IMG/VR virus record: IMGVR_UViG_3300009172_000020
Location: 1-36,622 of that record
DNA length: 36,622 bases
Source: a virus
Strand: one strand, 5' to 3'
A model generated the notes under the pieces. The model made no database searches, was not told the origin of the DNA, and saw only the letters and a list, made by a program, of their open reading frames with translations. Within the stretch, counting starts at the first letter, position 1, and every line of letters begins with the position of its first letter. Of this stretch, positions 11,448 to 34,601 are shown one piece after another. The position numbers were made by a program, and so were the translations under genes.

Positions 11448-14400
11448 ATGGCCAATAGATTTCCACTAGTAGTAGATACAACAGCAGGTAACCAGTTTAG
11501 AGAATTACCGGATGGTGACAATCTATTACTGACAAACAGTAGCATTGTAAATGCTCTTGATATAACAGCATTAGGAACAGTTACAGCATCGCAATTAGTT
11601 GTTGATGGCACTGTATTCAGGAATGAATACGCTGACTTACAAAATAAGCCAACGATTCCTACATCAATACTTCAATTAGGTATAGGTGACGGTACAACTG
11701 GTCAGTTCTTAACAACGAACGGTTCAGGCGTAATTAGTTTTCAAAACTTACCAGATACAGATCCATCAGTAGGTGGAGACTTAACAGGTACAGTAAGTAC
11801 AGCAACGATTAATGCAAACACAATTGGCATTAGTCAACTAGATGTTAACGACGGTACAATTGGTCAAGTACTTGCAACAGACGGCTCAGGCAACTTACAG
11901 TTCCTTACAATTTCCGGTGGCGGTGGTGGTGGTGGCGCAAGTAACTTTGTTGACCTAGGTGGACAAATTGCACTAAGCCAAATTGATGACGACTTTATTA
12001 CACCAGCTAAATTAAATGACAACAGTCAGGTACCAACAGCAGGGCAATACTTAACAGTAAGTGCAGGCGGCGACTTTGAATACTTGAACTTACCTACAAC
12101 AAACCCAGAATGGGTTAACGTACAAAACAAACCAACAATACCTGCAACACTAACAGACTTAGGTATTACAGACGGTGATGCTGGCGATCTTCTTAAAACA
12201 GACGGTGCCGGTAACTTTAGTTTTACAGCATTTGATAGTATTGAAAACATAGAGTTTAGTGGAACAACAATTAGAACTGTAACAGACAACAGTAATATTT
12301 CACTTGATCCAAAAGGCAACGGATATGTTAATGTTATAGGCACAAATGCTTTAGTCCTTCCAACAGGTACAACTGGCGAACGTTCACCAAACGTTGCTGG
12401 TGCAATGCGTTTGAATAGTACACTAGGTATTTTTGAAGGCTATGACGGAAGTAACTGGAGCGGACTAGGTGGTGTAAGATCTGTAGATGGACTAACATAT
12501 GTTAGTGCAGAGACTACTCCAGGTGCTAGTGATGATACAATTACATTTGTTACTAATGATCAAACAAGTGCAACACTAACTGAAACTAAATTAGAAATAA
12601 ATCAAGCTGTTGGTGTAAAAATAAAAAGCACACAAACAGCATTAGACTTTGAAACTGGTGCATTAAGTGTTGACGGTGGCGTCAGTATTAAGGGCAACTT
12701 GATTGTCAGTGGTGCAATATCAGTTAACGAAGAATTTAATACAAGTATAAAATTCGACGGTGCTACGCTAACAGATACATCAACAAATCAAATTACAGTT
12801 AACCCATCCGACATTTCTTTTTTAGCAACATCAATGAAGTTAAGAATATTTGGTGCTAGTGCAGATAATGTCGACCAAGATACAAGCAACTTAGGTGTAC
12901 AAGTAAGTAGAGTTGGTTTTGCTACGCCAGACGCAAGCGGCAATGAAGTAACATTTAGTTATAGAGTTGCACAAATGGATCAAAACACAGGAAAAATAAG
13001 TGCTGTGACAGCGGCTGTAGATATTACTATTGAGCCAGATGAAATAACTGACTTTAACAACAATAAAAATATTCAAGTTGTAGTAAGCAGAGTATCTTCT
13101 TCACACAACGTGCTTGTTTATAGAAAAATTGGTTCAGAAGTTGATTATAGTTTACATACAGTGTTAGGACCAAAAGAACTAGGCAATGCATTAAGTAATA
13201 TTGTATACACAGACTATTATGATTTTGCTGTTACGCCTTGGAGCAAGCTATCAACGCAAGGTATGTATACAGCAACTAGTGGACTAGTGCATGTTCCTTT
13301 AGTGGCGCCAGGCACTCCTAAACTAGGATTTATAGATACTAGTATAACTGATATAAACACAGATACAAATATAATTACAGTAGCAAATAGTTATTTTGCA
13401 AGTCAAGCAACTGTTGAAGTAGTTGTTGACGATACTATTCCTGTACAAACAGCAATTGATGCTGCTAAAACACAAAATAGAAACGGACTAACGTTAGAAA
13501 ATAGAACTTACTTTATACAACGATTAGAAATACCAGACGGCTTCACACTTAAAGGTGGCGGCGACCAAACAAGAATAATAAAACAGTATTGGTCAACAGA
13601 TGTGTCAACAGGTGACAATAACTTTATACGTCCAAAGAGCGGATACGCAACATACGGTAATATTACTATTAGAGACGTGCGTATAGACGGTAATGCACAA
13701 AACCAATATTTAACAACTGATACTACAACAAAATATTTAAACTATGCTGTTTACCTTTATGGAACTGACATACTATTTGAAAACGTAGAATTAGATAATG
13801 TTATTGGTGGAGGCATATATGCTTACCACGCATCAATTACAAACAACCTAACTATTTTAAATAGTGAAATTACAGGCGGTGGTCTAACTTATAGTTATGA
13901 TTGGAACCCATTGTATGCAGACGAGTGTAGAACTATTAAAATTGCACACAACACATTTAAAGATTATCCTGGACCAGTAAGTATTAGTGCTGTACAAAAA
14001 GGTATTGTATCACCTAATATTGTTGACAACTGTGGTGAAGGTATATTTGCATACGGTGCAACTAAAATTGTACTCACACCAAACGTACTACTAGGACCAG
14101 CAGGTGAGTTTATTTCCAATCCAGATGTACTTAACTCAGAATACGATAGCGTAAACGTAAACATTGAACCAGGTGTTGACTTTAATAGTCCACAGTTTGT
14201 GTATCAAGAGAATGGTGCATTCTTTGACTTTACAGCTAATCAAGGGCAGTTAACAGGAATAATAAACGAACTACGAAAAACAAACAACGTTGAAGAGCTT
14301 TCAACAGATTATAGTGAAACACTAGGTGGCGATGATTACATAGCGTTTACTAACGCTGGTGATGTAAATGGAGCGTTTGCATTCCGTATTGTAGCATCAA

Positions 14401-14789
14401 GAGTTAGTGACTTACTTAGTAGAGCAAGTTATACACAATTAGTTACAGCAAATGCTAATTCACAAGGGTTAGTGTATAGAATTGTTGCAACAGAATATGT
14501 ACCACAAAAGACTGTTAGCGGTGCTGGAAATCAGTTAGCAGGCAGTCATTACGAAGTTCCTGTAAATAGTACTACTGGACTGAACTTAGAAGATATAGTA
14601 AGGTTAGTCGGTCATAATACAACTCCACCATCGGGCGGAATTAACGGAACGATAAAAACAATAAATACGATAAGCAATACTATTGGTATTGATTTTGGTG
14701 ATGGCTTTGGTGATATTACTGTAGTAGGTAATAGCGGCCAAGTAGCATTACAAAACAATTTCGTAGTAGCCAAAGGGAAAATTAACTAA
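11448..14789 (+). CDS. 1113-aa tail-fibre-like protein with right-handed beta-helix domain
   Basis: The N-terminal half holds repeated phage-fibre motifs: YADLQNKPTIPTSILQLGI (about residue 61) and VNVQNKPTIPATLTDLGI (about 223), which are near-copies, with TGQFLTTNGSG-type strands between and a seven-Gly linker at about 157-163. A jelly-roll-like middle (about 430-640) follows. Residues about 660-895 look like a right-handed beta-helix of the pectate-lyase type: a TIPVQTAIDAA entry helix, then stacked short strands such as NGLTLENRTYFIQRLEIPDG, GNITIRDVRIDGN, NNLTILNSEITGGG and RTIKIAHNTF. Such domains in phage fibres bind or degrade surface polysaccharide; catalytic residues cannot be assigned by eye. 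AGGATAAG, about 5 bp upstream, supports the start. Its stop overlaps the next ATG. Confidence 0.85.
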   Translation: MANRFPLVVDTTAGNQFRELPDGDNLLLTNSSIVNALDITALGTVTASQLVVDGTVFRNEYADLQNKPTIPTSILQLGIGDGTTGQFLTTNGSGVISFQNLPDTDPSVGGDLTGTVSTATINANTIGISQLDVNDGTIGQVLATDGSGNLQFLTISGGGGGGGASNFVDLGGQIALSQIDDDFITPAKLNDNSQVPTAGQYLTVSAGGDFEYLNLPTTNPEWVNVQNKPTIPATLTDLGITDGDAGDLLKTDGAGNFSFTAFDSIENIEFSGTTIRTVTDNSNISLDPKGNGYVNVIGTNALVLPTGTTGERSPNVAGAMRLNSTLGIFEGYDGSNWSGLGGVRSVDGLTYVSAETTPGASDDTITFVTNDQTSATLTETKLEINQAVGVKIKSTQTALDFETGALSVDGGVSIKGNLIVSGAISVNEEFNTSIKFDGATLTDTSTNQITVNPSDISFLATSMKLRIFGASADNVDQDTSNLGVQVSRVGFATPDASGNEVTFSYRVAQMDQNTGKISAVTAAVDITIEPDEITDFNNNKNIQVVVSRVSSSHNVLVYRKIGSEVDYSLHTVLGPKELGNALSNIVYTDYYDFAVTPWSKLSTQGMYTATSGLVHVPLVAPGTPKLGFIDTSITDINTDTNIITVANSYFASQATVEVVVDDTIPVQTAIDAAKTQNRNGLTLENRTYFIQRLEIPDGFTLKGGGDQTRIIKQYWSTDVSTGDNNFIRPKSGYATYGNITIRDVRIDGNAQNQYLTTDTTTKYLNYAVYLYGTDILFENVELDNVIGGGIYAYHASITNNLTILNSEITGGGLTYSYDWNPLYADECRTIKIAHNTFKDYPGPVSISAVQKGIVSPNIVDNCGEGIFAYGATKIVLTPNVLLGPAGEFISNPDVLNSEYDSVNVNIEPGVDFNSPQFVYQENGAFFDFTANQGQLTGIINELRKTNNVEELSTDYSETLGGDDYIAFTNAGDVNGAFAFRIVASRVSDLLSRASYTQLVTANANSQGLVYRIVATEYVPQKTVSGAGNQLAGSHYEVPVNSTTGLNLEDIVRLVGHNTTPPSGGINGTIKTINTISNTIGIDFGDGFGDITVVGNSGQVALQNNFVVAKGKIN

Positions 14790-17700
14790 TGTCAAGTTTA
14801 AACAATATTAACAATAATGCTTCGGTCGTAAACGTAGGCAGAACTACTCCAGTTACGCCAGGCGCACAACCGGCTGCAAACAGTATTCCTGTTGTAGTTG
14901 CTACAGACCAAACAGCGATACCGGTCGTTGAACAAAACAAAATACAATCAGAGGTTGCCCTTTCGTTACTAGGTATACCTAGATCAGAAGTTGCACTTGG
15001 TATCTTTGCTGATGTTAACACATACGATGTTAACCCAAGTGAATGGTCAAGCGCACCTGCAGATTATTCAGAAGTAGGCAATACAGATACACAGTATACA
15101 GGTGTTGGTGGCGCACAAGGCTGGGGCATCTTACACTTACCTGAAGAATCAGGTGCAAAGGTTACAGCACCAGCAGACGAAACAGCAGTACTTACAAGTA
15201 AAAGATTTTTTAGATATCAGCCAGGACGTGTTTCTGCAGCTACATTTGGTATTAAGAGTTCATTTGCTTCAGGTAACGTAGTAGGCGCTGGTCAAAGACA
15301 ACCAACAAGAAACCCAGACGTTAAAAAGTATGGCATCTTTGATAAGTTTGACGGATACTATTGGGAAACAAGAGACACAGGACAAGGCGATCAGTTTGCT
15401 GTTGTAAGACGTACACAATCTATTATTAGAAAGAACCCTTTGCAATTTGGTAATAGTTCAGGACAACAAACAGAAGATCACGCACTAGGTGGTAAAGCAC
15501 CATCAATAGCGGAAAGCACATATAACCAATATCCGACAGCAACAAAATACTTGACAGAAAATAAATTCGATCTAATTGACAAGAGTGTTATTAGTAACAC
15601 GGCTGTTAAGTGCCAACGAGATTTAGGTTACTTCTTAGACGCAATTGGTACAGATATTACACTAGGCACAACCTACGGTGCAATATTCCAAGGATTAGCA
15701 GAATCTAATTCAAACGAATATCCATTACCAGCAAGCGTTACTACAGCAATTGACAACTCAGAAACACAAGTTAAAGCACTAGCAGGTGTAGATACAACAG
15801 CAGATGCTGCTGTAGACGCATGGTACGCTATTTTAAGAGCCGTTGCTGTTGATGCTGGTACAAGAGTTGATTATGCAAGTGCAACTCAAACAGAGCAAAT
15901 TGCTTTCCTTAAAGCTGTTACATTTACTGATCCGTCAAGTGGAGCAACAGCAAGTGAGATAGCTGTTAAAGACCAACTAGTTGCGAACAGAGATTTTATT
16001 GCGGCAGAGATTAATGCTTGGGTAACAGATCAGTATCCAAGTGCAAGTCACAATGTATTCAAATGTACACGAGATGTGTTGTTTGTTTTAAATGCTATAT
16101 CATATGATTTATTATACGGCGGCAACAGTTCTATATACGATGCGGCTAAGTTCTTCTTTTACGATGGATTTAGTAAGAGTGATCAAACATCAGATTATAT
16201 TACACAAACAGTAGCGGCATATGGCCACTTAGCTAGTATCCTTGACGACATTGTTAAAAATGTAAGTATTGTTAAAACAACAGGAAACAGCGAAACACAA
16301 AGCACAGGCAATGGTGTTGCTGGTAATGCAGACTCAGACATAGTTGTTGCATATGCTACAATTATTAGAGATGTTATTAACGAAGGTGACATACTATTAA
16401 GTTTGCCAGTTACAAGAACAGCACCAGATACTTCATGGGGTGCAGCTTCTATGACAGCTGCTCAATCAGCAATTACAGCAGCTAAACAAACTATTGTAAC
16501 TACAGTGTCACCTGTAACATTTACAGGCGACGATCTAAAATGTAAGAGAGATTTAGAATTTGTATTAGATGCTTACATCAACGATTTACGTTGGGGCGGC
16601 AACGGACACATAATTGCAAATGGTGCAACTTACGAAACAGCATTATTAAATGATGCAGAGCGTGAGGGCGAAACGCATTATTTCTTTAGAAATAAATTGC
16701 GCGATACACTAGCAGGTATAAATGAAACAGCAGCAAGAACTAAAATTGGTGACCTTGCTAAGTATCAAATACAAGCGGTAACAGCAAACGGCTCAGGTGC
16801 ATACCCTGCACAACTAGGTCCAGACGGAGTTACTACAGGTAAAATTACAGAAGCACAGATTGCAGCTGCTACATACGGACAACGTAGTAAAGTAGAAACT
16901 ATATTTGCTGTATACTCATTGTACTATGGTTACTTAGTAAGTCAAAGTTTAACTTACGATGCTGTAACAGATTTACCAGATGGTGCTGTTGAAGCAGACT
17001 TCTTAGAAGTACTCAAGTACAAATGTGTTAGAGATGTTAAGTATATAATGAATGGTTACGGTAGCGATGTACAGTTTGGCGGAAACGCAGGAACAGTATA
17101 TAACGCAGCAAAATACTATAGCGACGGCGCACTAAAAGTTTACTCACAAACAAACGCTGGCGTAGTTGCAGAAATTAACAGACACGTATTTTTAAAGGAC
17201 TTGTTAACAGCAACAGGAACTGTAAGTGTAACAAGAACAGATGATTCAGCTATTAGTATTAATAGTTTGGCAACTAAGTTTGCTTTAAGTACAGCTCAAA
17301 GAGATAAACTTAATGTGCTTGGTAATCTTATTGTAAACAACTTTACAACAGAATATGCTGGCGCTGTTGATTACGGTAAAGCAGGACAGTTTGGTGATTT
17401 AGTAATCTTACGTGATGGATTAATAATGTGCCATGCTGCACTTTACGATCCAACACTACTTAAAAAGCGTTTGAAAACTCCAGCACAAATTGATACAACA
17501 AATAATACCTTTACTTTAGCAGAAGGAAGTGTTATAATAGGACAGTATGTAAACTATTATGGCGATTGTCCACAACTAACTGACGGTAAGACTTACTGGG
17601 TATCAAATGTTAGTGGACCAAAAGGGAATGTGATACAACTTATGGATCCTGCAGTAGCTGACTTTGACCAGTTCGATGTTAACCCAAGTAATAATACTAT

Positions 17701-19531
17701 AATCACGTTAACTGGTGCAGGAACAAGTCACTTTATTGAAACTCCAGTTCCGTTTATTGCTCCAAGCGAGTATAGCAAGTCGTTTGGACTTGCTGGTGTT
17801 ACAGAAAGATATGACGGTATGTTCCCATACTTATATAGCTCTTCAGGTGTGCTACCTGCAGAATCATCTGACGTAGTAATTGGTTACATTGATACAGCAA
17901 TAGACACAAGTATTGATGCTGCATCGTTAAGAACACAAATAGATAACTTAAACTTCAAGTACAAAACTTGGACAAGAGATCATGTTGATCCATCATACTA
18001 TTCAGTATATGAATATAGAGTTGGTAGAACTAGATTCTCAGGAGATAGTTTAGACGGAACTACACGTAATAGTGTATACAGTGATAACGTACTAGACAAG
18101 AAAGCAGGTGAACTGTTCCTAGGAACAGGCGTTTCAGCACAAGAGCAAACATCAGTTTGGGATCTAGACTTTAGTAAGGTTACCATGCTTAAAGTTGAAT
18201 TTAGTTGGTACGGTGCTGTTGGTGCGTTATTCCTAGCATATGTTCCAGTTGGCAATGGTGAAGCACGTTGGGTAAGAGTACACCATTTACGTTGTTCAAA
18301 CCAGTTAAAGATATCTTCATTAGGTAATGCTACACTTCCAATTACATATCTAGTATATGGTGGCGGTAGTGAAAGTAGATTTGGTGTTCCAAATGCTAAC
18401 AGGCTTCAGAACCCATATGGTAGTTATTCAGAAAGCCTTGTTAAGTATGGTGCTTCTTACTACATTGATGGTGGTGACAGAGGTACTGTAAGACTATTCA
18501 ACCACAGTAGTGAAACACCAACAGATGTATATGGATCAAGATACAAAGTAGGCGTTGACAACACTAATGCAGGTGATCCGGTTACACCTATAATGACAGT
18601 TAATAATCTAGACCCAGATACAACAGGATTAAATGCTCCAGCTGTTAGTACATTCTATATGAACGCTAGAATTATTACAGGTAACTCACAGGATCAAAAC
18701 GTTAAAGTTATTTGGGTAGACGGCAACGACCTATATCTTAATAAGCCAGTAAGTGCTGTTTCGACACTAGGTATAATTGTAGACAGACCTGCATTGCTAT
18801 ACGGTTTAAAAACTAAAGACAACATTACATCAGGTAATGGTGATGACGTTAGAAACAGAGTACAGGTATATCCAACACGTTTAAGTGCTGGGTCTCAAGG
18901 TACTGTAAATACTAAACTGACACTAGTTAAAAGTCCGACATTCCAAACAACTGTAGGAACGACCGGAAGTTTTGCAATTAATGCAGAAGTAAATATAAAC
19001 AGTCAATACTTACTGTCTACAACAAATACAGATTACCTTTCACAAAACGGCGACTTTACATACGGTTACTTCCAAGCAAGTTTAAATGGATCAGAAACAC
19101 TCATCAGTGTACTAGGAAGACTAGAGAAAGCTAATGATAATTACTTCTTCTATCCAGAGGACATCTACAACGGTACGTTAGTTTTTGCTAGTGGTGCTTC
19201 GTTCTTAAAAGAAGGCGTGTATGACCCACAGGGTACAACACTTACTTCAAGCGAAACTACATTTGAAAAAGAACGTTTAAGTTCAGTAGAAGTTGCACTA
19301 AGATCACAAACACCTATTCCAGGTACAGGTACAGAACTAGCAAGTTACTATATTGCTCCAGGTGCTGAAGAATTTGACTTAGCAACATATTTTGATTATA
19401 ACAAAGAATACATAAGTTACCCATTAACAGATCAAATAGAAACCCTTTACATAGCAACGTTTAGTAATACACTTAACAGTTCAGCTGCGCAGGTTTCATT
19501 GAGTGCCAGCTTAACGTGGGAGGAGCAATAA
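14789..19531 (+). CDS. 1580-aa virion structural protein with four ~155-residue KCxRD repeats
   Basis: This is the second-largest protein. The N-terminus (PVVVATDQTAIPVVE at about 33, then SLLGIPRSEVALGIFADVNTY) and motifs FFRYQPGRVSAATFG (about 137), VEFSWYGAVGALFLAYVP (about 1136) and KYGASYYIDGGD (about 1219) all recur in the next gene, so the two are paralogues. Inserted in this one is a helical region (about 274-860) made of four diverged repeats spaced about 150-160 residues apart. Each opens with KCxRDxxxxLxA and a D...GGN-type turn (at about 274, 424, 584 and 744). This repeat type occurs in marine T4-like structural proteins; its function is not known to me. It probably belongs to a baseplate-attached fibre. 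It starts on the stop of the previous gene. Confidence 0.85.
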   Translation: MSSLNNINNNASVVNVGRTTPVTPGAQPAANSIPVVVATDQTAIPVVEQNKIQSEVALSLLGIPRSEVALGIFADVNTYDVNPSEWSSAPADYSEVGNTDTQYTGVGGAQGWGILHLPEESGAKVTAPADETAVLTSKRFFRYQPGRVSAATFGIKSSFASGNVVGAGQRQPTRNPDVKKYGIFDKFDGYYWETRDTGQGDQFAVVRRTQSIIRKNPLQFGNSSGQQTEDHALGGKAPSIAESTYNQYPTATKYLTENKFDLIDKSVISNTAVKCQRDLGYFLDAIGTDITLGTTYGAIFQGLAESNSNEYPLPASVTTAIDNSETQVKALAGVDTTADAAVDAWYAILRAVAVDAGTRVDYASATQTEQIAFLKAVTFTDPSSGATASEIAVKDQLVANRDFIAAEINAWVTDQYPSASHNVFKCTRDVLFVLNAISYDLLYGGNSSIYDAAKFFFYDGFSKSDQTSDYITQTVAAYGHLASILDDIVKNVSIVKTTGNSETQSTGNGVAGNADSDIVVAYATIIRDVINEGDILLSLPVTRTAPDTSWGAASMTAAQSAITAAKQTIVTTVSPVTFTGDDLKCKRDLEFVLDAYINDLRWGGNGHIIANGATYETALLNDAEREGETHYFFRNKLRDTLAGINETAARTKIGDLAKYQIQAVTANGSGAYPAQLGPDGVTTGKITEAQIAAATYGQRSKVETIFAVYSLYYGYLVSQSLTYDAVTDLPDGAVEADFLEVLKYKCVRDVKYIMNGYGSDVQFGGNAGTVYNAAKYYSDGALKVYSQTNAGVVAEINRHVFLKDLLTATGTVSVTRTDDSAISINSLATKFALSTAQRDKLNVLGNLIVNNFTTEYAGAVDYGKAGQFGDLVILRDGLIMCHAALYDPTLLKKRLKTPAQIDTTNNTFTLAEGSVIIGQYVNYYGDCPQLTDGKTYWVSNVSGPKGNVIQLMDPAVADFDQFDVNPSNNTIITLTGAGTSHFIETPVPFIAPSEYSKSFGLAGVTERYDGMFPYLYSSSGVLPAESSDVVIGYIDTAIDTSIDAASLRTQIDNLNFKYKTWTRDHVDPSYYSVYEYRVGRTRFSGDSLDGTTRNSVYSDNVLDKKAGELFLGTGVSAQEQTSVWDLDFSKVTMLKVEFSWYGAVGALFLAYVPVGNGEARWVRVHHLRCSNQLKISSLGNATLPITYLVYGGGSESRFGVPNANRLQNPYGSYSESLVKYGASYYIDGGDRGTVRLFNHSSETPTDVYGSRYKVGVDNTNAGDPVTPIMTVNNLDPDTTGLNAPAVSTFYMNARIITGNSQDQNVKVIWVDGNDLYLNKPVSAVSTLGIIVDRPALLYGLKTKDNITSGNGDDVRNRVQVYPTRLSAGSQGTVNTKLTLVKSPTFQTTVGTTGSFAINAEVNINSQYLLSTTNTDYLSQNGDFTYGYFQASLNGSETLISVLGRLEKANDNYFFYPEDIYNGTLVFASGASFLKEGVYDPQGTTLTSSETTFEKERLSSVEVALRSQTPIPGTGTELASYYIAPGAEEFDLATYFDYNKEYISYPLTDQIETLYIATFSNTLNSSAAQVSLSASLTWEEQ
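15604..17370 (+). repeat. Four diverged ~155-codon repeats (KCxRD...GGN) inside the 1580-aa gene
   Basis: Units begin near 15607, 16060, 16538 and 17020 with KCQRDLGYFLDAIGTD, KCTRDVLFVLNAISYD, KCKRDLEFVLDAYIND and KCVRDVKYIMNGYGSD. Units two to four continue with GGN, and two and four with (Y)NAAK/DAAK. Apart from this signature the units have diverged strongly, so the duplication is old. Confidence 0.75.
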
Positions 19532-19534
19532 TAG

Positions 19535-22500
19535 ATGCCTCAAATCAAAATAGGATTCGACAGAATACCTATACCAACGTCAAAGACATTTGTACCTCTT
19601 TATGACATTGTTAAAGGTGTCCCGCTAAGAGATTCAAATGGTAACATAATTGTTACTGAATCTGAAGGTCCGGTAGAGGCTCTTTCGAAAGCAGAGAATA
19701 GTACCAGTGTTGTAGTAAACAACGTTGTCGCTGATAATACAGTGTTAAGTATTGTTGAACAATTTGCTGAAACATCACAAGTTAGTACATCACTATTAGG
19801 TATTCCAAGAGCAGAAGTCCAACTTAGTTTATTCTCAGATGTAAGTACATACGGTATAAACGAAGAAGAGTGGGAGTTCTATCAATTTAACGGAGTGTCT
19901 GGTCGCCCTGGTGGGTGGTATACTAGACGCAACACTACATACGGCAATCATTACTATACAAGACTAAGAGAAGAAACAAATGAACAAGCACTTGTTGTAG
20001 AAAGTTTTCCTGTAGCATTTACATTTCCTCCGGGACCTAACTATGTAAATGGCGGCTACAATACAGCGGTGTTCAACAGATATTTAGAATTTATAAATTT
20101 AGGCAACCAACTATATAACGATTATGTAGGTGACTATCCTCTGTTTGCACAAGAAAACTTTTTAGACCCTACACTATGTGATGTATCAGACGGTGACGTA
20201 AACTATCCAGATGATGAACAACTGGGTTATGATAAACTTGAAAACTGGTGTCAAGCATGGATGAACATGCGTGACGGATTATTAAGTAATCCTGGTACTA
20301 ATACTCCAATAAGATTCCCTACAGGATATGATGCTACAAACACAAGGCCTGGACAATCAGACCAAGCACAGTACTTTGGGCTACTTCAAAGTAAGAAAGC
20401 ATATAGATATCAGCCAGGACGTATATCAGGATTTACTTTTGGCTTTAGAGCAAGTAGAGACGAAGCTAGTATTGACAACACCATCGAATGGGGCATAGGC
20501 AATCCAACAGATGAATATGTGTTTCAAATAAGAGGTCCACAATTTAATATCATACGTAGAAGCTCGGTAAGATTGCCAAACGAAATACTACAACGCATGG
20601 GCTTTAATAATTCATCTCAAACAACAGTTAGTAGTAGAGAACCGTTTAACGAAACTGAATTCTATGAACTTGTAATTACAAGAGACTTTTTTAACGGAGA
20701 TGCACTCGATGGTAATGGTAGATCGGGTTACTTACTTGATCCAAAAAAAGTTACTATGTACAAAATTGAATTTGGTTGGTACGGTGCTATTGGTGCTAAG
20801 TTTTATGCTTACATTCCAACAGACACTGGAGATGCACGTTGGGTGTTAATGCACACACTAACAATTGAAAACCAACTAGGTGAACCTTGTTTACAAGATC
20901 CTTACTTTAAATTTAGATACTTACAAGATATTAAAAACACTGGTAACATTAGAACACCACAATACTTGTACAAGTATGGTGCTTCGTGTTATATTGACGG
21001 CGGCGACAATAGTGCTGGCAAATACTACAGTTACACATCAGATGATAAAATTGTAAACAGTGCTAGACAAACAAGTATTGCAGGAATTTATCCTAAACAG
21101 TTTATTAAAAACAGTAACGGTTACCAAAAGCCAAACAAGAAAAATGTTTATCCAGTAGATTTAAAAATAGACTGTGATCAACTTACAGAAGTTCAGGTTG
21201 TTGAAATAGAAGGATGTCCTGCATTTGGACATCACTATGCACCTAGTTTACACAGTAATCAAAACGGTGTAATACGTAGCGTAAATATAAACGGTTCTGG
21301 TTCTGAAATAACAACTAATCCGCAACTACAAGTTAATATAACAAATATTACTCAAGCAAGTTGTGGTATTGTAACTACAGCAACAGCACATGGTTTTTAC
21401 ATTGGACAAAAAGTTACACTTGAAAATGTTGTAGGTATGACAGAGGTTAACTTACAAACATACTATATTGATGTATTAAGCGATACACAATTTGCTTTAT
21501 ATAGCGATCCACAATACGATACAGAAGTTAACACAAGCGGCTTTGCAGCATATATAAGTGGCGGAACAGTAGATGGTGATCCAATATTTAGATCAAGAGA
21601 CGATGACTCGAAACTAATCATACCCGGTATTAATAGTAGCTACGCAAAAATAACTAGTGAATCAACAGCAAACATTGAACGTATAGGGTTTGACGGAGCA
21701 TACGAAAAAAGTGCAACAGGTACTATCGATCCACAAGTAAAATTAAATGGCGTATTAACAAACCGTGCTGATATAGACACAACGTCTGTAAGATTTACAA
21801 GTTACTATGATGCCATTGCAGGTAGTACGTACCCTGTTACAGGTGACAGTTTTGATTGTAACTATTTAAATCCTGTAACTAGAGAAGGAACACAGTTTTG
21901 TGAATTTTTAATTGGTGTTACAGAGAACAAACCGATTATAGCAACACGTACTAATGCACTTGGTACTCCAATACAAGAAATTAAGTTTTTAGCAAAAGAC
22001 GGCATCACAGAACTAGAGCCTAATCTAGATAATATACTACATGCAGAATTTACTCATAGTAGCTTATTTAGAGATAGGGACGGATATGAAGAGTCAGAAG
22101 GCGATGCACCATTAGGTATACGCTATGACGTAGATTATCGTTTGCCGCAACCGGCAGGTACTGACTCTGGAATATGCTCCGGCCTTAAATGTTCAATTGA
22201 AGATAGGTTAGAATTTGCTGTAACATATGCATCAGCAGATCCTGTATCAGGCACGTCGAGTGATGTTATTGTATTTGACGATGAGCCTAGTGAGTTAATT
22301 AATGGCTTTAATTTAATAGGCGGAGAGTTTGGCGAAGGCGATACAGCAAGTGGAATTAAATTTACATCTGGACTAAAAACTTTTGTTACTGGTGAAGGTG
22401 TAGAAAAATATTACGTAGATGTAGATGGTGCTCCTAGTAGTAGTGCATTTACTTTAAAAGTATCTCCTGTAAGATTAACAGATAAACTTATAACAGGCGA

Positions 22501-22978
22501 CCCTGACAAAGGTATAAACAAAGTACAAATCTTTAGTTTCCAACCAAAGCCGATGTATCTTGTTGTGTTTATGCGAGACAATGCTAGAATGAATAATGTA
22601 ACTATTACTGAGTACATAAACGGAACTACAAGAGCATTTTGTCCTGAATGGATTTCAAACAGCGGAGTTGATGTAGTATTTTCCGGTGGTGCAAGTGCAG
22701 GGGTTCCTGCAGCTAACTACTTAGAAAAAGAAAGACTAGCAAGTACAAGTGTAGACGTACAAAACTCGCAACCTCTAAGACCAGGTAAGTTAAAGGACAC
22801 GTTATATGTTTCACCTAATAGAAACAACACTGTTGACTTAGACAGTGTGTATGGCCCAGATAGAACAACAATTACTCCTGGAATATTAAATACTTCAGCA
22901 ACATTTGTCACAGCAAGAAGTATGATCAATAACGATGTTAATTTAGTAAGTGCAAGTATCACAACGAAGGAAGATTAA
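19535..22978 (+). CDS. 1147-aa virion structural protein, paralogue of the upstream 1580-aa protein
   Basis: The shared framework with the 1580-aa protein is clear: SLLGIPRAEVQLSLFSDVSTY (about 85), YRYQPGRISGFTFGFRASR (about 290), KIEFGWYGAIGAKFYAYIP (about 411) and YKYGASCYIDGGD (about 481), in the same order. It lacks the KCxRD repeat region. Residues about 603-650 (TATAHGFYIGQKVTLENVVG, then GMTEVN and FALY) resemble the small beta FCCH-like domain that recurs in phage structural proteins. The C-terminus (ASVDVQNSQPLRPGKLKDTLYVSP) is beta-rich and has a counterpart in the paralogue (VEVALRSQTPIPGTGTELASYYIAP), so the ends also correspond. A strong GGGAGGAG lies 10 bp before the ATG, within the last codons of the upstream gene. 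Its own stop overlaps the LRR gene start. Confidence 0.85.
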   Translation: MPQIKIGFDRIPIPTSKTFVPLYDIVKGVPLRDSNGNIIVTESEGPVEALSKAENSTSVVVNNVVADNTVLSIVEQFAETSQVSTSLLGIPRAEVQLSLFSDVSTYGINEEEWEFYQFNGVSGRPGGWYTRRNTTYGNHYYTRLREETNEQALVVESFPVAFTFPPGPNYVNGGYNTAVFNRYLEFINLGNQLYNDYVGDYPLFAQENFLDPTLCDVSDGDVNYPDDEQLGYDKLENWCQAWMNMRDGLLSNPGTNTPIRFPTGYDATNTRPGQSDQAQYFGLLQSKKAYRYQPGRISGFTFGFRASRDEASIDNTIEWGIGNPTDEYVFQIRGPQFNIIRRSSVRLPNEILQRMGFNNSSQTTVSSREPFNETEFYELVITRDFFNGDALDGNGRSGYLLDPKKVTMYKIEFGWYGAIGAKFYAYIPTDTGDARWVLMHTLTIENQLGEPCLQDPYFKFRYLQDIKNTGNIRTPQYLYKYGASCYIDGGDNSAGKYYSYTSDDKIVNSARQTSIAGIYPKQFIKNSNGYQKPNKKNVYPVDLKIDCDQLTEVQVVEIEGCPAFGHHYAPSLHSNQNGVIRSVNINGSGSEITTNPQLQVNITNITQASCGIVTTATAHGFYIGQKVTLENVVGMTEVNLQTYYIDVLSDTQFALYSDPQYDTEVNTSGFAAYISGGTVDGDPIFRSRDDDSKLIIPGINSSYAKITSESTANIERIGFDGAYEKSATGTIDPQVKLNGVLTNRADIDTTSVRFTSYYDAIAGSTYPVTGDSFDCNYLNPVTREGTQFCEFLIGVTENKPIIATRTNALGTPIQEIKFLAKDGITELEPNLDNILHAEFTHSSLFRDRDGYEESEGDAPLGIRYDVDYRLPQPAGTDSGICSGLKCSIEDRLEFAVTYASADPVSGTSSDVIVFDDEPSELINGFNLIGGEFGEGDTASGIKFTSGLKTFVTGEGVEKYYVDVDGAPSSSAFTLKVSPVRLTDKLITGDPDKGINKVQIFSFQPKPMYLVVFMRDNARMNNVTITEYINGTTRAFCPEWISNSGVDVVFSGGASAGVPAANYLEKERLASTSVDVQNSQPLRPGKLKDTLYVSPNRNNTVDLDSVYGPDRTTITPGILNTSATFVTARSMINNDVNLVSASITTKED

Positions 22979-25362
22979 TGGCAGAGATTAAATTTGGTCT
23001 AAACGTAAACAGGAGTCTTGCAGATGTTGCAGATCCTGCAGCGGCATTAGAAAATATAGGCATAGATATTAACGATCTTGATGTTATTAGAAACGCAGCC
23101 GGCACCTTAGGCATTACAGCAGACGATGTAAAAACATTAAGTGGGCTCGAAGTTCCTGTACAAACATACCTTGTTAAGCTATACCAAGATACATTACAAT
23201 ACGCTACTATTATTGACGAAACAGCAGGTACAGGTTCGGCACTAAAAGGTAACTTATCAGTTAACGGTGCATTAGGTGCTGGCGCAATTAAGTATCAATA
23301 TATTGATGATGACAATAGTACACTAAAATTTGCAGACATTAGTACAAGCCGTGTTAGTAGCTGGAGTAGTACAGACAGTCCTGCATCAAGCACTAGTCCA
23401 ATATTTTACGGAAGTCAAATTGAAGTCGATGGCGCTATTGAAGCAAATACATTAGAAATATTAAAGCCAGCTGATACAGTACGGTTTAGAAGTTCTGAAG
23501 TTCCTACACACAAAGTACAAGCAACTATCGGCGGTCAAACAGTATACCTATATGCAATGAAAGGTATACCTTTAATATTTGAAGGATTCTTCCGTAACTT
23601 AGATAGTGATTTAAGATTAGTTACAAGTGGTGCAGTTAGTTGGCGGGTTGTAAACAATCAATTTGATTACTTAACAAAAGAATATGAAAATGTAGGCGGC
23701 AGTAATACAACACGTAGTTTCTTAAGATATAGAGACACAGGCGCTGCATCTAAAAACATTGAGATATATCATAATCCAAATAATATTTTAACATTACCAT
23801 TAGGCGGAGTTGGTATAGAAGAGTTGCCAGCGGCCGCATTAGAAAATTGTGAAAACTTATATGTAAACAACAACATCCTAAAAACATTCCCAGACTTTAC
23901 ACAGTTTGTTCCTAATGTTAGATTATTAGATGTTAGAGAGAATAACTTTACACTAGGTGACGAGCCTACTTTACGTAAATTTAATTCAAGTGTGTTAGCA
24001 CGTATACCTACAACAGTTAGAGAGATTAGATTTGGCAATACATTTAACGGAAGTATAACAGCAGACCTAACAACACTTACTAGCTTGTTAACTTTAAATC
24101 TAAACGGACACAGCAGAGGCGGAGCGTTTAATTACTTCGACCAAGATGCTGAAGATCCAACTGGTGCAGGGCCTGAAGTTGCAACCACTTGTCAAAACTA
24201 TTACCTATACAGAAACAGTTTTAATTCTGTACCACAAAGTGTTAAAGACTTGCCAGACCTAAGGCAGATTAATATATACAGTAATAGCATTACTGATGAT
24301 AGTATGCAGTTTGCTAGTAGTGTAATTAACTATATAAACATAGGCGGCAATCCAGGAATAAACATTCCAAACCTAACAAACAAAAATTCACTACAGAATT
24401 TTTATTCTCATTACAATAGTGCAGCTAATGTACCTGCAGATAGAAACTTATTTACTACAAGCTCAGGAGCATATAAGTTTGCAAACTGTGGAGCTCTAAG
24501 ACTTATATACTGTTACGGAAGTGCATATACTGGACCAATACCAAAGTTTGCTGGAAACTCACAATTATACTATTTCCAAGGACAGTACACTGCATTAACA
24601 GGTGGACGTTCAGACACAGAACAAGACTACGTTTTGTATGATGATGTATTTGATGATTGTAACACTTCAATGCAGTACTTCCAAGTAGCAAGTAGTAGTT
24701 TGTTAAATGCTCCAATGCACCCAGACTGTTTCGAGAAGCCAACAAACATGGTAGGAATTGTATTTAGAAGTTTCAATGCTGGAGTTAGCGGAGCGTTTCC
24801 AAGTTTAAGCACAATGCAAAACTTGCGGTACATTGTAATGTTGCAGAATAACTTTACAGGACCATTGCCTAACTTCTTTAACAATCCACAACTATATTAT
24901 TGCCACTTGTATGGCAACTCATTTAGTGGTACTATTCCTGTAATACAAAGCAATGCATTACAGTACTTCTATGTGCATAGTAATCAGTTAACAGGATTCG
25001 GTGGACTAGAAACACCGAACCTAAGAAGATTGTTTATTAGTTACAATTTAATTACTGGTGCTGTCCCTAATATGAATAATTTAGTACTGTGTTATGATTT
25101 TTATATGAATAACAATGACTTTACAGACTACACATCAGGAGCGGTAGTGTTGTGTAGAAGTTTACTTAGATTTGATATAAGCAACAATCCAAACATGTCA
25201 GCGGGAGCGGTAAATAGTATTGTAGCAGATCTTGTTGCAAATTATGAAAACAATCCACGTAGTGGTATTAGTATTAATTTAGCAAACACAGCTATTCCTA
25301 CAGGTGATGCTGTAGAGCAAATAGAGTTCTTAAGGTCCAAAGGCTGGAATATGAGGTTATAA
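22978..25362 (+). CDS. 794-aa virion-associated protein with long leucine-rich-repeat region
   Basis: The N-terminus (NVNRSLADVADPAAALENIG) matches the attachment-type start of the two following proteins, so this is probably a fibre or baseplate component. After a beta-rich segment (about 115-265) comes a leucine-rich-repeat region from about 270 to the end. Examples are LENCENLYVNNNILKTFPDF (about 288), VRLLDVRENNFTL, LRQINIYSNSITD, LRYIVMLQNNFTGPLPNFF (about 615), YCHLYGNSFSGTIPV (about 641), FYVHSNQLTGFGG, LRRLFISYNLITGAVPNM and LRFDISNNPNMSAG. The NxFxGxIP/LP signature is the plant-specific type of LRR also seen in some bacterial surface proteins. LRR solenoids bind proteins or glycans, which suggests host-surface recognition (inference). 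Some repeats are irregular. No signal peptide or membrane segment is seen. Confidence 0.88.
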   Translation: MAEIKFGLNVNRSLADVADPAAALENIGIDINDLDVIRNAAGTLGITADDVKTLSGLEVPVQTYLVKLYQDTLQYATIIDETAGTGSALKGNLSVNGALGAGAIKYQYIDDDNSTLKFADISTSRVSSWSSTDSPASSTSPIFYGSQIEVDGAIEANTLEILKPADTVRFRSSEVPTHKVQATIGGQTVYLYAMKGIPLIFEGFFRNLDSDLRLVTSGAVSWRVVNNQFDYLTKEYENVGGSNTTRSFLRYRDTGAASKNIEIYHNPNNILTLPLGGVGIEELPAAALENCENLYVNNNILKTFPDFTQFVPNVRLLDVRENNFTLGDEPTLRKFNSSVLARIPTTVREIRFGNTFNGSITADLTTLTSLLTLNLNGHSRGGAFNYFDQDAEDPTGAGPEVATTCQNYYLYRNSFNSVPQSVKDLPDLRQINIYSNSITDDSMQFASSVINYINIGGNPGINIPNLTNKNSLQNFYSHYNSAANVPADRNLFTTSSGAYKFANCGALRLIYCYGSAYTGPIPKFAGNSQLYYFQGQYTALTGGRSDTEQDYVLYDDVFDDCNTSMQYFQVASSSLLNAPMHPDCFEKPTNMVGIVFRSFNAGVSGAFPSLSTMQNLRYIVMLQNNFTGPLPNFFNNPQLYYCHLYGNSFSGTIPVIQSNALQYFYVHSNQLTGFGGLETPNLRRLFISYNLITGAVPNMNNLVLCYDFYMNNNDFTDYTSGAVVLCRSLLRFDISNNPNMSAGAVNSIVADLVANYENNPRSGISINLANTAIPTGDAVEQIEFLRSKGWNMRL

Positions 25363-25363
25363 C

Positions 25364-26374
25364 ATGGCAAGTTCAAGTATACAAGGGTTTCTAAAATCAG
25401 CAAACCTATTAGAAAACACACAAGATAGACAAGCACTTAACAACTTAGGTACGGCACCGGTTGCTGACGATATTAGTTTGTTTATTAACAATAATCAAAA
25501 CGTTAGTACAATACAGTGCGCTGACTCTGAGTACAACTTTATTACAGGGCTTGTTACACTAGTAAACAGTACGCCAGAATTATTTGCAGCAAGAAGTGCT
25601 GTTTTTACAAATGGTGATCCTGTAAAAATAAATTACACCGACGACACTGTACTCAAAGATGACTTGTTTATTACACAAAGTGATGGTGAAAAAACTTTTG
25701 GATTTGCATCAGACAAAGCAGGCGACAGTCAGTATACATTTAGTCCTCCAGCTGCTGGATTTAAGGTTGTAAGATCAGATGCTGTTGTACTTTCAAACTT
25801 AACATTCTTAGGTGCTGTAGAAGATACCGCAGGCTTTAGTAGTGGACTTGGTGAAGGGGCTGCCGGTGGCGAACCTGAAGGTGCATCAGGCATCAATACT
25901 GAAGACACATATGCTAATCAGTTTTTATCAATATATCAATACTTAGATATTGCAAAATATCAAGCAGATAAGAAATTTGTAAGCGATAGAGATGTTGCTA
26001 CAGATGATGACTTTAGGATGGAAGGTACATTTAATATTGAAGATCCTTCAGACATGATTCTTAGTGAAGGCGTAAACTCTAACAGTCCTGGATTGTATAT
26101 TACAAACCCAGCAAGCCCGCTTACTAACATTCAACGTATAAGAGCATTCAGTGATACATCAAATCCTTGGGAAGTTACTGGTAGTGGCGCAAACACTAAA
26201 CTATCTACAGGTGCTATAACAGCACAGACTGGTGATTTAAAATTAAACAACGGAATACTCATTGACGGAATTACGCCGCTTACTGAAAGTGGAAACGTAA
26301 CCAATGTTACGTTTACTCACAAAGCAAAAGTAAAAATAGACGGTATTGACTACTTTTTGTGTTTAACTAGTTGA
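25364..26374 (+). CDS. 336-aa virion structural protein sharing fibre N- and C-terminal modules
   Basis: The N-terminus (FLKSANLLENTQDRQALNNLG) is a copy of the module that opens the LRR protein and the PA14-like protein (L-x-D/E-xx-D-xx-AL-x-NLG). A middle beta region follows, then a flexible Gly/Glu linker near 163-180 (GEGAAGGEPEGASG). The C-terminus (VTFTHKAKVKIDGIDYFLCL) ends in a small domain also found at the end of the opposite-strand PA14-like protein (ITFNGTVYKVL). It starts two bases after the LRR gene. Its last 12 bp overlap the 3' end of the minus-strand gene; the shared bases are almost palindromic, and both proteins end in Thr-Ser. It is probably a small fibre or baseplate decoration; the exact role is unknown. 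Confidence 0.8.
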   Translation: MASSSIQGFLKSANLLENTQDRQALNNLGTAPVADDISLFINNNQNVSTIQCADSEYNFITGLVTLVNSTPELFAARSAVFTNGDPVKINYTDDTVLKDDLFITQSDGEKTFGFASDKAGDSQYTFSPPAAGFKVVRSDAVVLSNLTFLGAVEDTAGFSSGLGEGAAGGEPEGASGINTEDTYANQFLSIYQYLDIAKYQADKKFVSDRDVATDDDFRMEGTFNIEDPSDMILSEGVNSNSPGLYITNPASPLTNIQRIRAFSDTSNPWEVTGSGANTKLSTGAITAQTGDLKLNNGILIDGITPLTESGNVTNVTFTHKAKVKIDGIDYFLCLTS

Positions 26375-28633
26375 TGCTAGTACTTTATACACTGTTCCAT
26401 TAAACGTAATAGGTATTGTCCTATCAAATGCTAATGCATCTCCAAGACTCAATTCTGTTGCTGTTGCATTTACAGCAACAAAGTCTCTAACTTTTAATAT
26501 ACTAGATGCGTGTGTAAACTGAAGTCCTACTGTAGCTCCTAAACCGTCCGTTGTTCTAAGACCGTCTAAGGTACCAACAAATGGCGGTGCTGTGTTAAGT
26601 GGTATAACACATGCTTCCTTATTTTGTGTAGTTGCCGTTGGACATATAACAACAGTAGTACCAGCTACCATATCATCGCCTGCTTCTACCGGCTTATTAA
26701 TTGTAATAGTATTTGTGTTAGGATCAATAGCGACAATTCTAGTAAGTGTGCTAGTATCGTCCGGGTCAATAGCAGGCAAGTAAGGACTACTTTGTATAAC
26801 ATTATTAAGTCCAAAGCCAGTAACATCATTAAGAATTAGTTGTGTGTCGCCCGGGGATGCCGTTGTAGCAATTTCTCTACCTAGTGTTCCTATACAAAAG
26901 TTATTTAAACTATTGTTGTTTAGCCCTTTATCGCTGAAGAAGAATACTTCCTCTAATCCTGATAAGTTTAATGCGATGTTAGTTGTAAATGTTCTAATAC
27001 TTGATATACTTGTTACTCGTATATAATCGGTACCAGCTGGATTATTTTCGCAAACAACTACAGTTCCTATTTTAAGTCCGTTAGTAGTTGTTATAGTAAC
27101 ATCGTTGCCAACAGACGTTGCCGCTTGTGTATCTAAGAATCCTCTGTGATCTAAAAACTTAACAGCAACAGTAGCATCACCCGATGATGTTCCATTTACA
27201 ATTACAATATTGTTGCGTGAAATATCCGATACTTGTGTGCCACTAGCAAACGCAGGTGAAATAATTTTATTACCAATTTCAATATTATCAGTATATGGGC
27301 TTGTTGATGTTGTGCTACAAATATTACTGTTTTGAATTAAGTTGTATGTGTACTCTGCTCGCAATGCGTTAGCAAATCTCAAAGGTGGAGCGTATGTAAC
27401 TGTTAATGGAGATATACTTAACCATTTAGCATACTGAGTACTAAAATTAACATCAGTTGGACCAATTGTGCCTCCACCTGTTAAAAGTCGATTATCATAA
27501 AATCCTTTAAAGCTATCTTCCTCAAAATCTGCAGGTAGTGATTGATACAAATACCAGTACGGCCAGTTACCGCTATCTTTAACATTTGTTGATAAGTTAG
27601 CATCTATGTACTTGTTAAAATAATTCGCTGTAGGATCACTATACCAGTAAGTTAATCGTATTTCAATTGGAACATACTTTTCTAGTGTTGACTCTGTGTG
27701 TGCAAATCTAAATGCTTCACTACCAATTTTATTAGCAATACTATATGTAAGTACAGCTTCATCAGGCACAGTTATACTTTGATTTAATGTGATAGTAGTG
27801 TTGCCTACACCATCAACAAACAGTCCAGAAGATATTTCAGTACCAAGTATTGCATTGCCAGAGGCATCCACAGCCGAGGTAACTTGATCGCCTATAATTA
27901 CTGTCCTAGCATCAATAGCGTCTACAGTTACACTAAGCTCATTAGCCATTGCACTCTTATGTTCTATCGGGCGTTCTTCAGCAAATGTATTTTGTACAAC
28001 TTGTAAGTCGCCAAACTCATCTGCTACTTCAAACATTACTAGTCCAGTAGTGTCGAAACTAAATGTACTAGGTCCACTAGCATCTGGTACGTAAAAGCCT
28101 TGCCATTGAATAAGTCCGTTTGCTCCACCTAGTGTATCGTCTAGCTTATTACTAAATTCAAATACACCATTGTTCCAGAAAGGCTTAGTTACTTGCGGGT
28201 TTTCACCCGGTGTAATAATTGTTGCGCCCGTTGTGTTCTTTGACAACGAAGCATTAATTTGATCAGTATCGTAAAACTTTGCAACTAGTCCATCGCCTCC
28301 ATTAAAGAACGGGGGATCATTAGTTGTTGCAATAATAGTATCTAATTGGTTCTTTACTGTAATTACCGGCGTTGCTATTTTGTCTACAAGCTCACCATCT
28401 TCTAATACAGTGTTCTTAACAGCAAGTCCTGCCATAAGACCAATATCTCTATTAGTTACTGTACTGTTGCTTATACCTTTAATAGCATCTAGGTCGCCGC
28501 CACTAAATGACTTATTATCAGAACCAACTACTAGGTTATTTAAAACGTTGTTAAGCGCCTGGTCTTTACTCTGCAGATCAGATAGATTTAAATCTCTACG
28601 TAGTCCTATGTTCTTAAATGATGGTCTTGGCAT
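26363..28633 (-). CDS. 756-aa virion structural protein with PA14-like domain, opposite strand
   Basis: The N-terminus (FKNIGLRRDLNLSDLQSKDQ, then ALNNVL) is a fuller form of the anchor seen in the LRR and 336-aa proteins. Residues about 115-330 look like a PA14-type beta-barrel: GLVAKFYD, FEFSNKLDDT, then LIQWQGFYVPDASGPSTFSF (the W-x-G-hydrophobic-xxP-xx-G signature), and later VPIEIRLTYWYSD. PA14 and GLEYA domains bind carbohydrate on cell surfaces. The rest is beta-rich, with TTTNGLKIGTVVVCENN and TGFGLNNVIQSS repeats at about 515-660. The C-terminus (ITFNGTVYKVLASTS) matches the end of the convergent 336-aa protein. It is the only fibre gene on the minus strand, with its own ribosome-binding site (AAGGAG, about 9 bp upstream) and late promoter. 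Confidence 0.83.
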   Translation of the reverse strand: MPRPSFKNIGLRRDLNLSDLQSKDQALNNVLNNLVVGSDNKSFSGGDLDAIKGISNSTVTNRDIGLMAGLAVKNTVLEDGELVDKIATPVITVKNQLDTIIATTNDPPFFNGGDGLVAKFYDTDQINASLSKNTTGATIITPGENPQVTKPFWNNGVFEFSNKLDDTLGGANGLIQWQGFYVPDASGPSTFSFDTTGLVMFEVADEFGDLQVVQNTFAEERPIEHKSAMANELSVTVDAIDARTVIIGDQVTSAVDASGNAILGTEISSGLFVDGVGNTTITLNQSITVPDEAVLTYSIANKIGSEAFRFAHTESTLEKYVPIEIRLTYWYSDPTANYFNKYIDANLSTNVKDSGNWPYWYLYQSLPADFEEDSFKGFYDNRLLTGGGTIGPTDVNFSTQYAKWLSISPLTVTYAPPLRFANALRAEYTYNLIQNSNICSTTSTSPYTDNIEIGNKIISPAFASGTQVSDISRNNIVIVNGTSSGDATVAVKFLDHRGFLDTQAATSVGNDVTITTTNGLKIGTVVVCENNPAGTDYIRVTSISSIRTFTTNIALNLSGLEEVFFFSDKGLNNNSLNNFCIGTLGREIATTASPGDTQLILNDVTGFGLNNVIQSSPYLPAIDPDDTSTLTRIVAIDPNTNTITINKPVEAGDDMVAGTTVVICPTATTQNKEACVIPLNTAPPFVGTLDGLRTTDGLGATVGLQFTHASSILKVRDFVAVNATATELSLGDALAFDRTIPITFNGTVYKVLASTS

Positions 28634-33640: not shown

Positions 33641-34162
33641 ATGCTTATGAAAACAGACACCCTAGGTATTCCACGATTCTCTAATAGAGATCTTATAGAC
33701 ATGATATATTCTGGTAATGCAGATAAAGTTCATGTAGTTCTGTGTGATCAAAATGATGATGTAGATAAGTTTAACGAAGTGTGTGAAGAACAAGGTATTA
33801 ACAAGCTACAAAAGTATATTCCATTAGATGTAGACGAGCAGACTTTTGACAGTGTATGTCAAAGTGAATGGTTTATGCCTGATGAATATAAGAACATGGA
33901 TATTTCACAATATTTGCAAGACAAGTGTAAAACACAAGAAGAACTTGTACGCTACTTTGAAGAATATGCAGAGTTTAACAAACGAGGTATGCTACCGTTA
34001 TTACGTTATATGATCTATCTAGTAGACTTTATGCGTGAAAATGATATTGTATGGGGAGTAGGTAGAGGTAGTAGTGTAGCAAGTTATGTGTTATACTTAA
34101 TAGGTGTACATAGAATTGATTCAATCCAGTATGACCTGGATTGGAGAGAGTTCCTTAGATAA
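33641..34162 (+). CDS. Stand-alone fragment resembling DNA polymerase III alpha (DnaE GRGS region)
   Basis: This is a 173-aa protein. Residues about 116-173 (LPLLRYMIYLVDFMREND, then IVWGVGRGSSVASYVLYLIG and VHRIDSIQYDLDWREFL) align by eye with the bacterial DnaE/PolC segment that reads YFLIV-x-FI-xWAK-xx-x-I-x-VGPGRGS-xx-GSLVAY-x-L-x-IT-x-xDP-x-xxDL-xFERFL. That segment forms the nucleotide-binding part of the family-C palm. The protein stops exactly where DnaE continues into the PDxDxD catalytic aspartates, so it cannot be a polymerase alone. The N-terminal ~110 residues are Asp/Glu-rich and unplaced. No remainder of a polymerase follows. It could be a decoy or regulator binding nucleotides, a primase/clamp partner, or a relic. 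The start is uncertain: ATG at 33641 or 33647, with no clear ribosome-binding site. Confidence 0.75.
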   Translation: MLMKTDTLGIPRFSNRDLIDMIYSGNADKVHVVLCDQNDDVDKFNEVCEEQGINKLQKYIPLDVDEQTFDSVCQSEWFMPDEYKNMDISQYLQDKCKTQEELVRYFEEYAEFNKRGMLPLLRYMIYLVDFMRENDIVWGVGRGSSVASYVLYLIGVHRIDSIQYDLDWREFLR

Positions 34163-34165
34163 ATA
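34158..34165 (+). promoter_or_regulatory. T4-type late promoter (GATAAATA)
   Basis: TAGATAAATACG contains the TAA stop of the polymerase-like gene and lies 22 bp upstream of the ATG at 34188, which follows an AGGAG site. It should drive the 137-aa gene and the gp31-like gene coupled to it. Confidence 0.6.
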
Positions 34166-34187
34166 CGTATATAATAGGAGAAGTATT

Positions 34188-34601
34188 ATGGCAATGAGAC
34201 AAAAAGGTCAAAAGACCTACACAACAATGCAAGGCAAACAAGTTGACATGGATTTGTTGCGTAAGAAGAATGAACTTACTCCAGCGGTAGGCAATGCTCG
34301 TGTAAATGCACGTGGCGATGAGCTAGGCCCTGGTGGTAAAATTGTTCGTAAGCGTGAACAAGTAATTAAAGATTATTACAAAGGATCTATGCCAGTAGCT
34401 GAAGAACCAGCTTTATCTGTATCTGACGTTGTTTCTGAAGAAGCACCTGCAGCACAAAAGGCTGTTAAGTCTAAAACTACTACAAGAGCTCAACAGAAAG
34501 TTGAAGAAGCAGCAACTTTACCAACTGAAGCCGAATTAAAAGAGTTCGACGACGACTGGGTAGAAGATACTGACGGCAACTTTGTACAAAAAGGTGACTA
34601 A
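34188..34601 (+). CDS. 137-aa conserved T4-like phage protein, unknown role
   Basis: The start at 34188 is set by TAGGAG 7 bp upstream and the late promoter; an in-frame ATG 84 bp upstream lies inside the preceding gene. The N-terminal ~65 residues (RQKGQKTYTTMQGKQVDMDL, NELTPAVGNARVNARGDELG, PGGKIVRKREQVIKDYY) are basic and look strongly conserved. The rest is Ala/Glu-rich, probably disordered, and ends acidic (EFDDDWVEDTDGNFVQKGD). A basic conserved head and an acidic tail under a late promoter, directly coupled to the head-assembly co-chaperonin, would fit a capsid-core or assembly protein. That is inference; I cannot assign a T4 gene number. Confidence 0.72.
   Translation: MAMRQKGQKTYTTMQGKQVDMDLLRKKNELTPAVGNARVNARGDELGPGGKIVRKREQVIKDYYKGSMPVAEEPALSVSDVVSEEAPAAQKAVKSKTTTRAQQKVEEAATLPTEAELKEFDDDWVEDTDGNFVQKGD

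Follow-up and report, generated by a model that had tools for sequence, protein, structure and literature searches.

The LRR gene and its surroundings

The window (the whole 36,622-nucleotide stretch analysed, positions 1 to 36,622 of IMG/VR record IMGVR_UViG_3300009172_000020) carries an ATG-initiated open reading frame of 794 residues at 22978–25362 on the forward strand, exactly where a preliminary description of the sequence had placed a phage virion protein with a long plant-type leucine-rich-repeat (LRR) region. Its start codon shares bases with the stop of the gene before it (TAATG), and the next gene begins 2 bases past its own stop. The surrounding cluster contains genes with matches to PHROG families of tail fibres and of virion structural proteins. 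The features of the locus are listed below.

14789–22978, forward: two upstream virion genes (14789–19531 and 19535–22978), homologues of S-TIM5 gp120 and gp119 in identical order
22978–25362, forward: gene of the LRR protein, a putative virion protein of 794 residues
22978–23169, forward: N-terminal module, helical, residues 1–64 (hhalign)
23170–23571, forward: conserved region with ADISTSR...SSWSS and YAMKGIP motifs and no confident fold, residues 65–198 (pLDDT below 50)
23572–23769, forward: long β-strands adjoining the solenoid, a probable N-terminal cap domain, residues 199–264 (DSSP; pLDDT ~56–84 per ten-residue block)
23785–25233, forward: LRR solenoid with a tyrosine-rich concave face, residues 270–752 (Pfam, phmmer, AlphaFold2, PDB comparison)
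24067–24072, forward: first insertion site, residues 364–365, where relatives L047, L050, L051 and L053 have an extra small domain in an LRR loop
24607–24627, forward: second insertion site in the same four relatives, residues 544–550
24847–25068, forward: plant-type NxFxGxIP/LP stretch (NNFTGPLP, NSFSGTIP, NLITGAVP), residues 624–697 (motif count)
25234–25359, forward: C-terminal helix and solenoid cap, residues 753–794 (pLDDT about 94 or more)
25364–26374, forward: downstream gene of 336 residues in the position of S-TIM5 gp117
26363–28633, reverse: gene of 756 residues with the shared N-terminal module, counterpart of S-TIM5 gp116 (also reverse)

The LRR content of the frame was borne out by Pfam, phmmer, motif counts and the predicted structure. 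In the HMM comparison with LRR families that the preliminary description had proposed, the protein qualified for the Pfam LRR clan, matching LRR_4 above its curated cut-off (35.3 bits, E 1.2e-8, cut-off 27) and also LRR_8; relatives L048, L051, L053 and L005 were also above cut-off. Against PDB sequences, phmmer matched plant LRR receptor kinases, mostly over residues ~596–740 (best E 1.2e-15). Residues 266–745 contain 11 instances of a degenerate LRR pattern 11 residues long, compared with a mean of 2.4 and a maximum of 8 in 2000 shuffles, and the motif NxxS/TGxxP occurs three times (residues 624, 647 and 690), compared with 0.08 in shuffles. About 19 repeats of 21–26 residues, four of them 33–35, with regularly spaced strands, cover ~480 residues (~270–752), so the earlier estimate of roughly 500 was right. 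Plant-type (PS) repeats of ~24 residues, with LxGxIP following the strand, are found in residues ~500–700, which hold three strict plant-type motifs plus GAFP and GPIP; repeats on the N-terminal side of residue 500 deviate from this pattern and have less regularity.

Immediately upstream, residues 611–679 of the 19535–22978 product match Pfam E1_FCCH (37.5 bits, cut-off 29.5), an unusual name for a phage virion protein.

Predicted structure of the LRR protein

An AlphaFold2 model built from 8 near-identical sequences was weak, with a mean pLDDT of 56. A second model, from twelve sequences down to 44% identity and without templates, reached a mean pLDDT of 75 and a pTM of 0.70. Here residues 1–196 have no resolved fold, and an uninterrupted solenoid runs from residue ~270 to the C-terminus at a pLDDT of ~90, mostly above 85, with parallel strands on the concave side and a Z score of 26 to solved LRR structures. 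When the model was compared with the PDB, the best 21 matches were all plant LRR receptor ectodomains, at Z 24–26 over about 470–505 residues. Structure prediction, another check that had been suggested at the outset, thus returned a solenoid and supports a plant-type LRR fold at the level of a model; the predicted arm is long and curved, in the manner of plant receptors for immunity and hormones.

The ectodomains of plant LRR receptor kinases (ERL1, HSL1, RGFR1, BRI1, PXY/TDR) likewise form superhelices with NxxxGxIP-type repeats. The window protein differs from them in having no kinase and another N-terminal domain, in being encoded by a phage gene, and in sharing just 15–21% identity, a level at which common descent and convergence are indistinguishable. 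No relative emerged from two scans that covered 84,980 genomes of bacteria and archaea; both relied on exact short peptides, which LRR proteins in general would escape, and a cellular donor may still exist.

A marine phage family with conserved gene order

Fourteen IMG/VR relatives with 86–93% identity each encode exactly 794 residues. More distant relatives are L047, L051 and L053 (60–64% identity, 964–969 residues), L048 (43–44%, 794 residues) and L092–L095 (33–36%, 833–1209 residues); the LRR part is kept in all of them, from 93% down to 33% identity. Where the contig is long enough, homologues of the 14789 and 19535 genes, the LRR gene, the 25364 homologue and a reverse-strand 26363 homologue follow one another in that order, and in L092 two extra ORFs precede the LRR gene. 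Judged by sequence comparison, the LRR gene is represented across a marine phage family by orthologues in conserved synteny. The 26363–28633 gene is a lone reverse gene among forward virion genes; every relative with coverage retains it, as does S-TIM5 (gp116).

The greater length of L047, L051 and L053 is accompanied by an extra domain at both insertion sites in the solenoid, which L050 has in part. The second insert resembles two segments of a ~2983-residue fibre ORF in the record of the relative L007 (E 2e-6). The solenoid therefore tolerates additions to its loops, the repeats staying in register. Residues 366–490 of L053 and 613–716 of L051 form a small domain with the pattern 'TDFTTIGA..N..GT.F.AT', which looks like a mobile fibre domain.

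A sister lineage, 40–44% identical in the 29412 gene, has no block 11448–28633 in the examined loci; its place is taken by one or two genes that are unrelated or fibre-like. This replacement fits an exchangeable host-recognition cassette but does not prove one. The 29412–32768 gene itself encodes 1118 residues with putative Ig domains (He_PIG, E 6.5e-15), of which the 40–44% relatives lack about 300 residues.

As for the host, psbA was found in none of the relatives, including the 152-kb L007, and tRNA genes were found neither in the window nor in the scanned stretches of the L007 record. A search of all records for T4-type Gp23 gave no match, and its controls were equally silent. At 76–110 kb of L007 (L072, L073), a long run of genes resembles, by eye, radical-SAM, sugar-modifying, glycosyltransferase-like and tryptophan-halogenase-like ones, which would be an unusual cargo for a phage.

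An N-terminal module common to a neighbouring gene

The preliminary description had placed the LRRs behind an N-terminal module shared with neighbouring fibre proteins. By hhalign, with relatives included, the first ~60 residues of the LRR protein match the N-terminus of the reverse-strand 26363–28633 product (probability 94.3, p 9.6e-8; best p of 0.02 among 40 column-shuffled control profiles); the same comparison with fewer sequences was weak (probability 41). The 26363–28633 product in turn matches that of the 25364 gene moderately (probability 76, p 2e-5), and the direct comparison of the LRR protein with the 25364 product was not significant. The claim of a shared module consequently holds mainly for one neighbour. 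The same module is common to S-TIM5 gp118 and gp116.

Relationship to S-TIM5 gp118

A direct tblastn search of 50,697 phage records with the window protein yielded nothing convincing. Only a structure search, together with gene order, profile comparisons and relatives of intermediate distance, brought out the link to the cultured cyanophage S-TIM5. In a viral structure library, the best fold match of the window protein was S-TIM5 gp118 (YP_007006107.1 / H6WFW9; E 1.3e-16). Over residues ~5–325, hhalign joined the two at a probability of 97.5% (E 8e-12, alignment A4) and 99.4% (E 2e-21, A6), whereas HMMs of the family sequences did not reach gp118. With relative L092 as the query, the only tblastn matches among the 50,697 phage records were four S-TIM records at the gp118 gene (E 2e-5). 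In S-TIM5, gp118 is flanked by counterparts of the two genes that adjoin the LRR gene, and the order gp120-gp119-gp118-gp117-gp116(-) reproduces that of the window together with its strand switch. Homology and gene order with gp116–gp120 thus place the window protein with the gp118 type of annotated virion proteins. gp118 is itself above the Pfam LRR_1 cut-off.

S-TIM5 gp118 and its counterparts in S-TIM54, S-TIM61 and S-TIM66 (Aurunvirus) share the N-terminal region, LRRs, gene order and strand switch with the window protein. However, gp118 is longer (1193 residues, compared with 794), its LRR part is not alignable by sequence past the first repeats, its annotation goes no further than virion structural protein, and its host is a known cyanobacterium. 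The S-TIM5 record labels it 'virion structural protein and packaging', the evidence used here being that product name. Membership of the virion, which had been proposed from the position of the gene and its N-terminus, gains indirect support through this syntenic annotation. S-TIM5 is described as having a novel structural module in place of the one common to T4-like cyanophages (PMC4928673). According to PMC10665884, Sabehi et al. 2012 found kinases in S-TIM5 virions, so proteomics of these virions exists. In the literature searched, S-TIM5 gp118 is nowhere described as an LRR protein, and no paper joins leucine-rich repeats, cyanophages and structural proteins or mentions Aurunvirus.

Variation across the solenoid surface

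The preliminary description had also suggested that the arm might bear diversity, and had proposed comparing variation on the LRR face with the rest of the gene. Among eight non-identical close relatives, dN/dS was 0.043 on the concave face, 0.057 in the core, 0.071 in the N-terminal part and 0.112 in the loops, and variable sites differed between concave and loop positions (p 0.002). Within the clade the concave face is thus the most conserved LRR surface, and the LRR gene as a whole is conserved at least as well as its neighbours in most relatives (86–93% identity, compared with 61–92% for other genes). Rapid or targeted variation was therefore not borne out: concave dN/dS is the lowest, the 14 closest relatives do not vary in length, and a search of seven relatives' records, which may be fragments, found no diversity-generating reverse transcriptase (PF00078), with positive controls that worked. 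On the same grounds of low dN/dS and no PF00078 match, we rejected the gene as the target of a diversity-generating retroelement.

Deep relatives show a different pattern. Identity to these is 0.17–0.29 at concave positions, 0.29–0.42 in loops and 0.44–0.54 in the core; concave positions were set by pattern and DSSP strands rather than by coordinates, and loop positions include LRR consensus residues. For L048 the values are 0.23 for concave, 0.42 for loop and 0.54 for core positions (p 0.001), and for L093 and L094 0.17 compared with ~0.33 (p 0.005 and 0.002); the difference between concave and loop identity was not significant for L092 and L095. The 36 pairs tested share ancestry and are not independent. 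By these sequence comparisons, the concave face is often the least conserved surface between lineages.

The concave face is also rich in tyrosine, which occupies 22 of its 95 positions but 5 of 286 loop positions (aromatic enrichment, p 5e-6). This richness holds in most relatives and is weaker in L048 and L094. LRR proteins as a whole, however, often have tyrosine at some of their concave positions.

Possible function of the LRR arm

The analysis shows the class of fold and its repeats, the orthology and synteny of the gene, the N-terminus held in common and the conservation pattern; from these we infer particle attachment, receptor binding and a glycan preference. With a gp118 relative annotated as a virion protein, the LRR arm is probably a surface that grips the host. 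Our preferred reading, at about even odds, is that a marine myovirus-like lineage carries the protein on its virions as an adhesin, and that the concave face is a binding surface particular to each lineage. In such an adhesin, the short N-terminal module would probably dock the protein to a tail or baseplate fibre assembly, and the small β-domain would cap a long right-handed LRR superhelix of plant-receptor-ectodomain build. Its tyrosine-rich, aromatic concave face would bind a host surface molecule, perhaps a glycan or outer-membrane protein; it would stay constant within a lineage because the receptor is constant, and would be rebuilt between lineages that use other receptors. The wider proposal, that a marine phage family recognises its hosts by a virion-borne, plant-receptor-type LRR arm whose tyrosine-rich concave face is fixed within and rebuilt between lineages, we offer tentatively.

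Some observations weigh against an adhesin. Host recognition may fall mainly to a separate fibre, the product of a 5005-residue ORF on the reverse strand of the 152-kb relative (L074:4933–19950 of L007), which is probably a giant protein of the tail fibre or baseplate; strong conservation within the clade would equally suit a structural contact inside the virion. The main alternative, which we consider somewhat unlikely, is a tail or baseplate scaffold that uses its concave face to clamp another protein of the virion cluster, such as the product of 19535–22978 or 25364–26374, rather than the host. Strong purifying selection on the concave face within the clade agrees with it, as do neighbours that are unchanged in relatives with enough coverage, and lineage-specific concave faces would then track co-evolving partners. 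However, LRR proteins mainly serve recognition, the candidate partners are large, have domains of their own and include none with a known need for such a clamp, and the absence of the whole block from the sister lineage is contrary to an essential tail scaffold.

Instead of a host receptor, the arm could bind host exopolysaccharide or the surfaces of mucus, algae or particles and so hold the phage near its hosts. For vibriophages, an LRR in the tail module was suggested to be consistent with adherence to mucus (PMC10945359), and a tyrosine-rich concave face would suit glycans; yet no association with mucus or particles is known for these contigs, and we regard this reading, which our data do not distinguish from host binding, as improbable. 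A role outside the virion, as an intracellular partner of some host factor in infected cells, is more doubtful still: the fold matches include LRR proteins from large dsDNA viruses of eukaryotes, but the tail-fibre operon, the N-terminal module common to a virion-cluster gene and the annotation of the S-TIM5 counterpart as virion structural speak against it.

Comparison with other phage LRR proteins

Most known receptor-binding proteins of tailed phages are trimeric β-helices, β-sandwich tips or lectin folds, and to our knowledge the LRR fold class is not used for receptor binding in any characterised phage. LRR proteins as such are already known in phages (PMC7765460, PMC10945359). ORF 287 of the tailed Vibrio phage pir03 is one (PMC7765460), but its annotation is BspA family/DUF285, unlike the window protein with its LRR_4 and LRR_8 matches and its plant receptors as best fold matches. 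An LRR has likewise been proposed in the tail module of marine phages of Vibrio mediterranei (PMC10945359); that assignment is weak (10% HHpred probability) and concerns the most variable protein of its genome, whereas the window protein is conserved. The new element, as far as our tools can tell, is a plant-receptor-type LRR arm whose descent and place in the virion cluster are conserved in a marine phage family, and which was unnamed in the cultured cyanophages of that family. If the LRR arm does recognise hosts, it would add a fold known chiefly for recognition in the immunity of plants and animals, in a family that includes cultured Synechococcus phages; with the S-TIM5 host in culture, the idea is directly testable.

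Other features of the window

Downstream of the cluster, 33641–34162 encodes a stand-alone DNA-polymerase-like protein of 173 residues (phrog_11127, full length). As listed, it overlaps 34104–34601 by 59 bases; the start assigned to that second frame is probably an internal ATG. At the other end of the window, two short tandem repeats (1164–1205 and 2252–2282) lie ahead of a giant fibre gene at 2299–11274.
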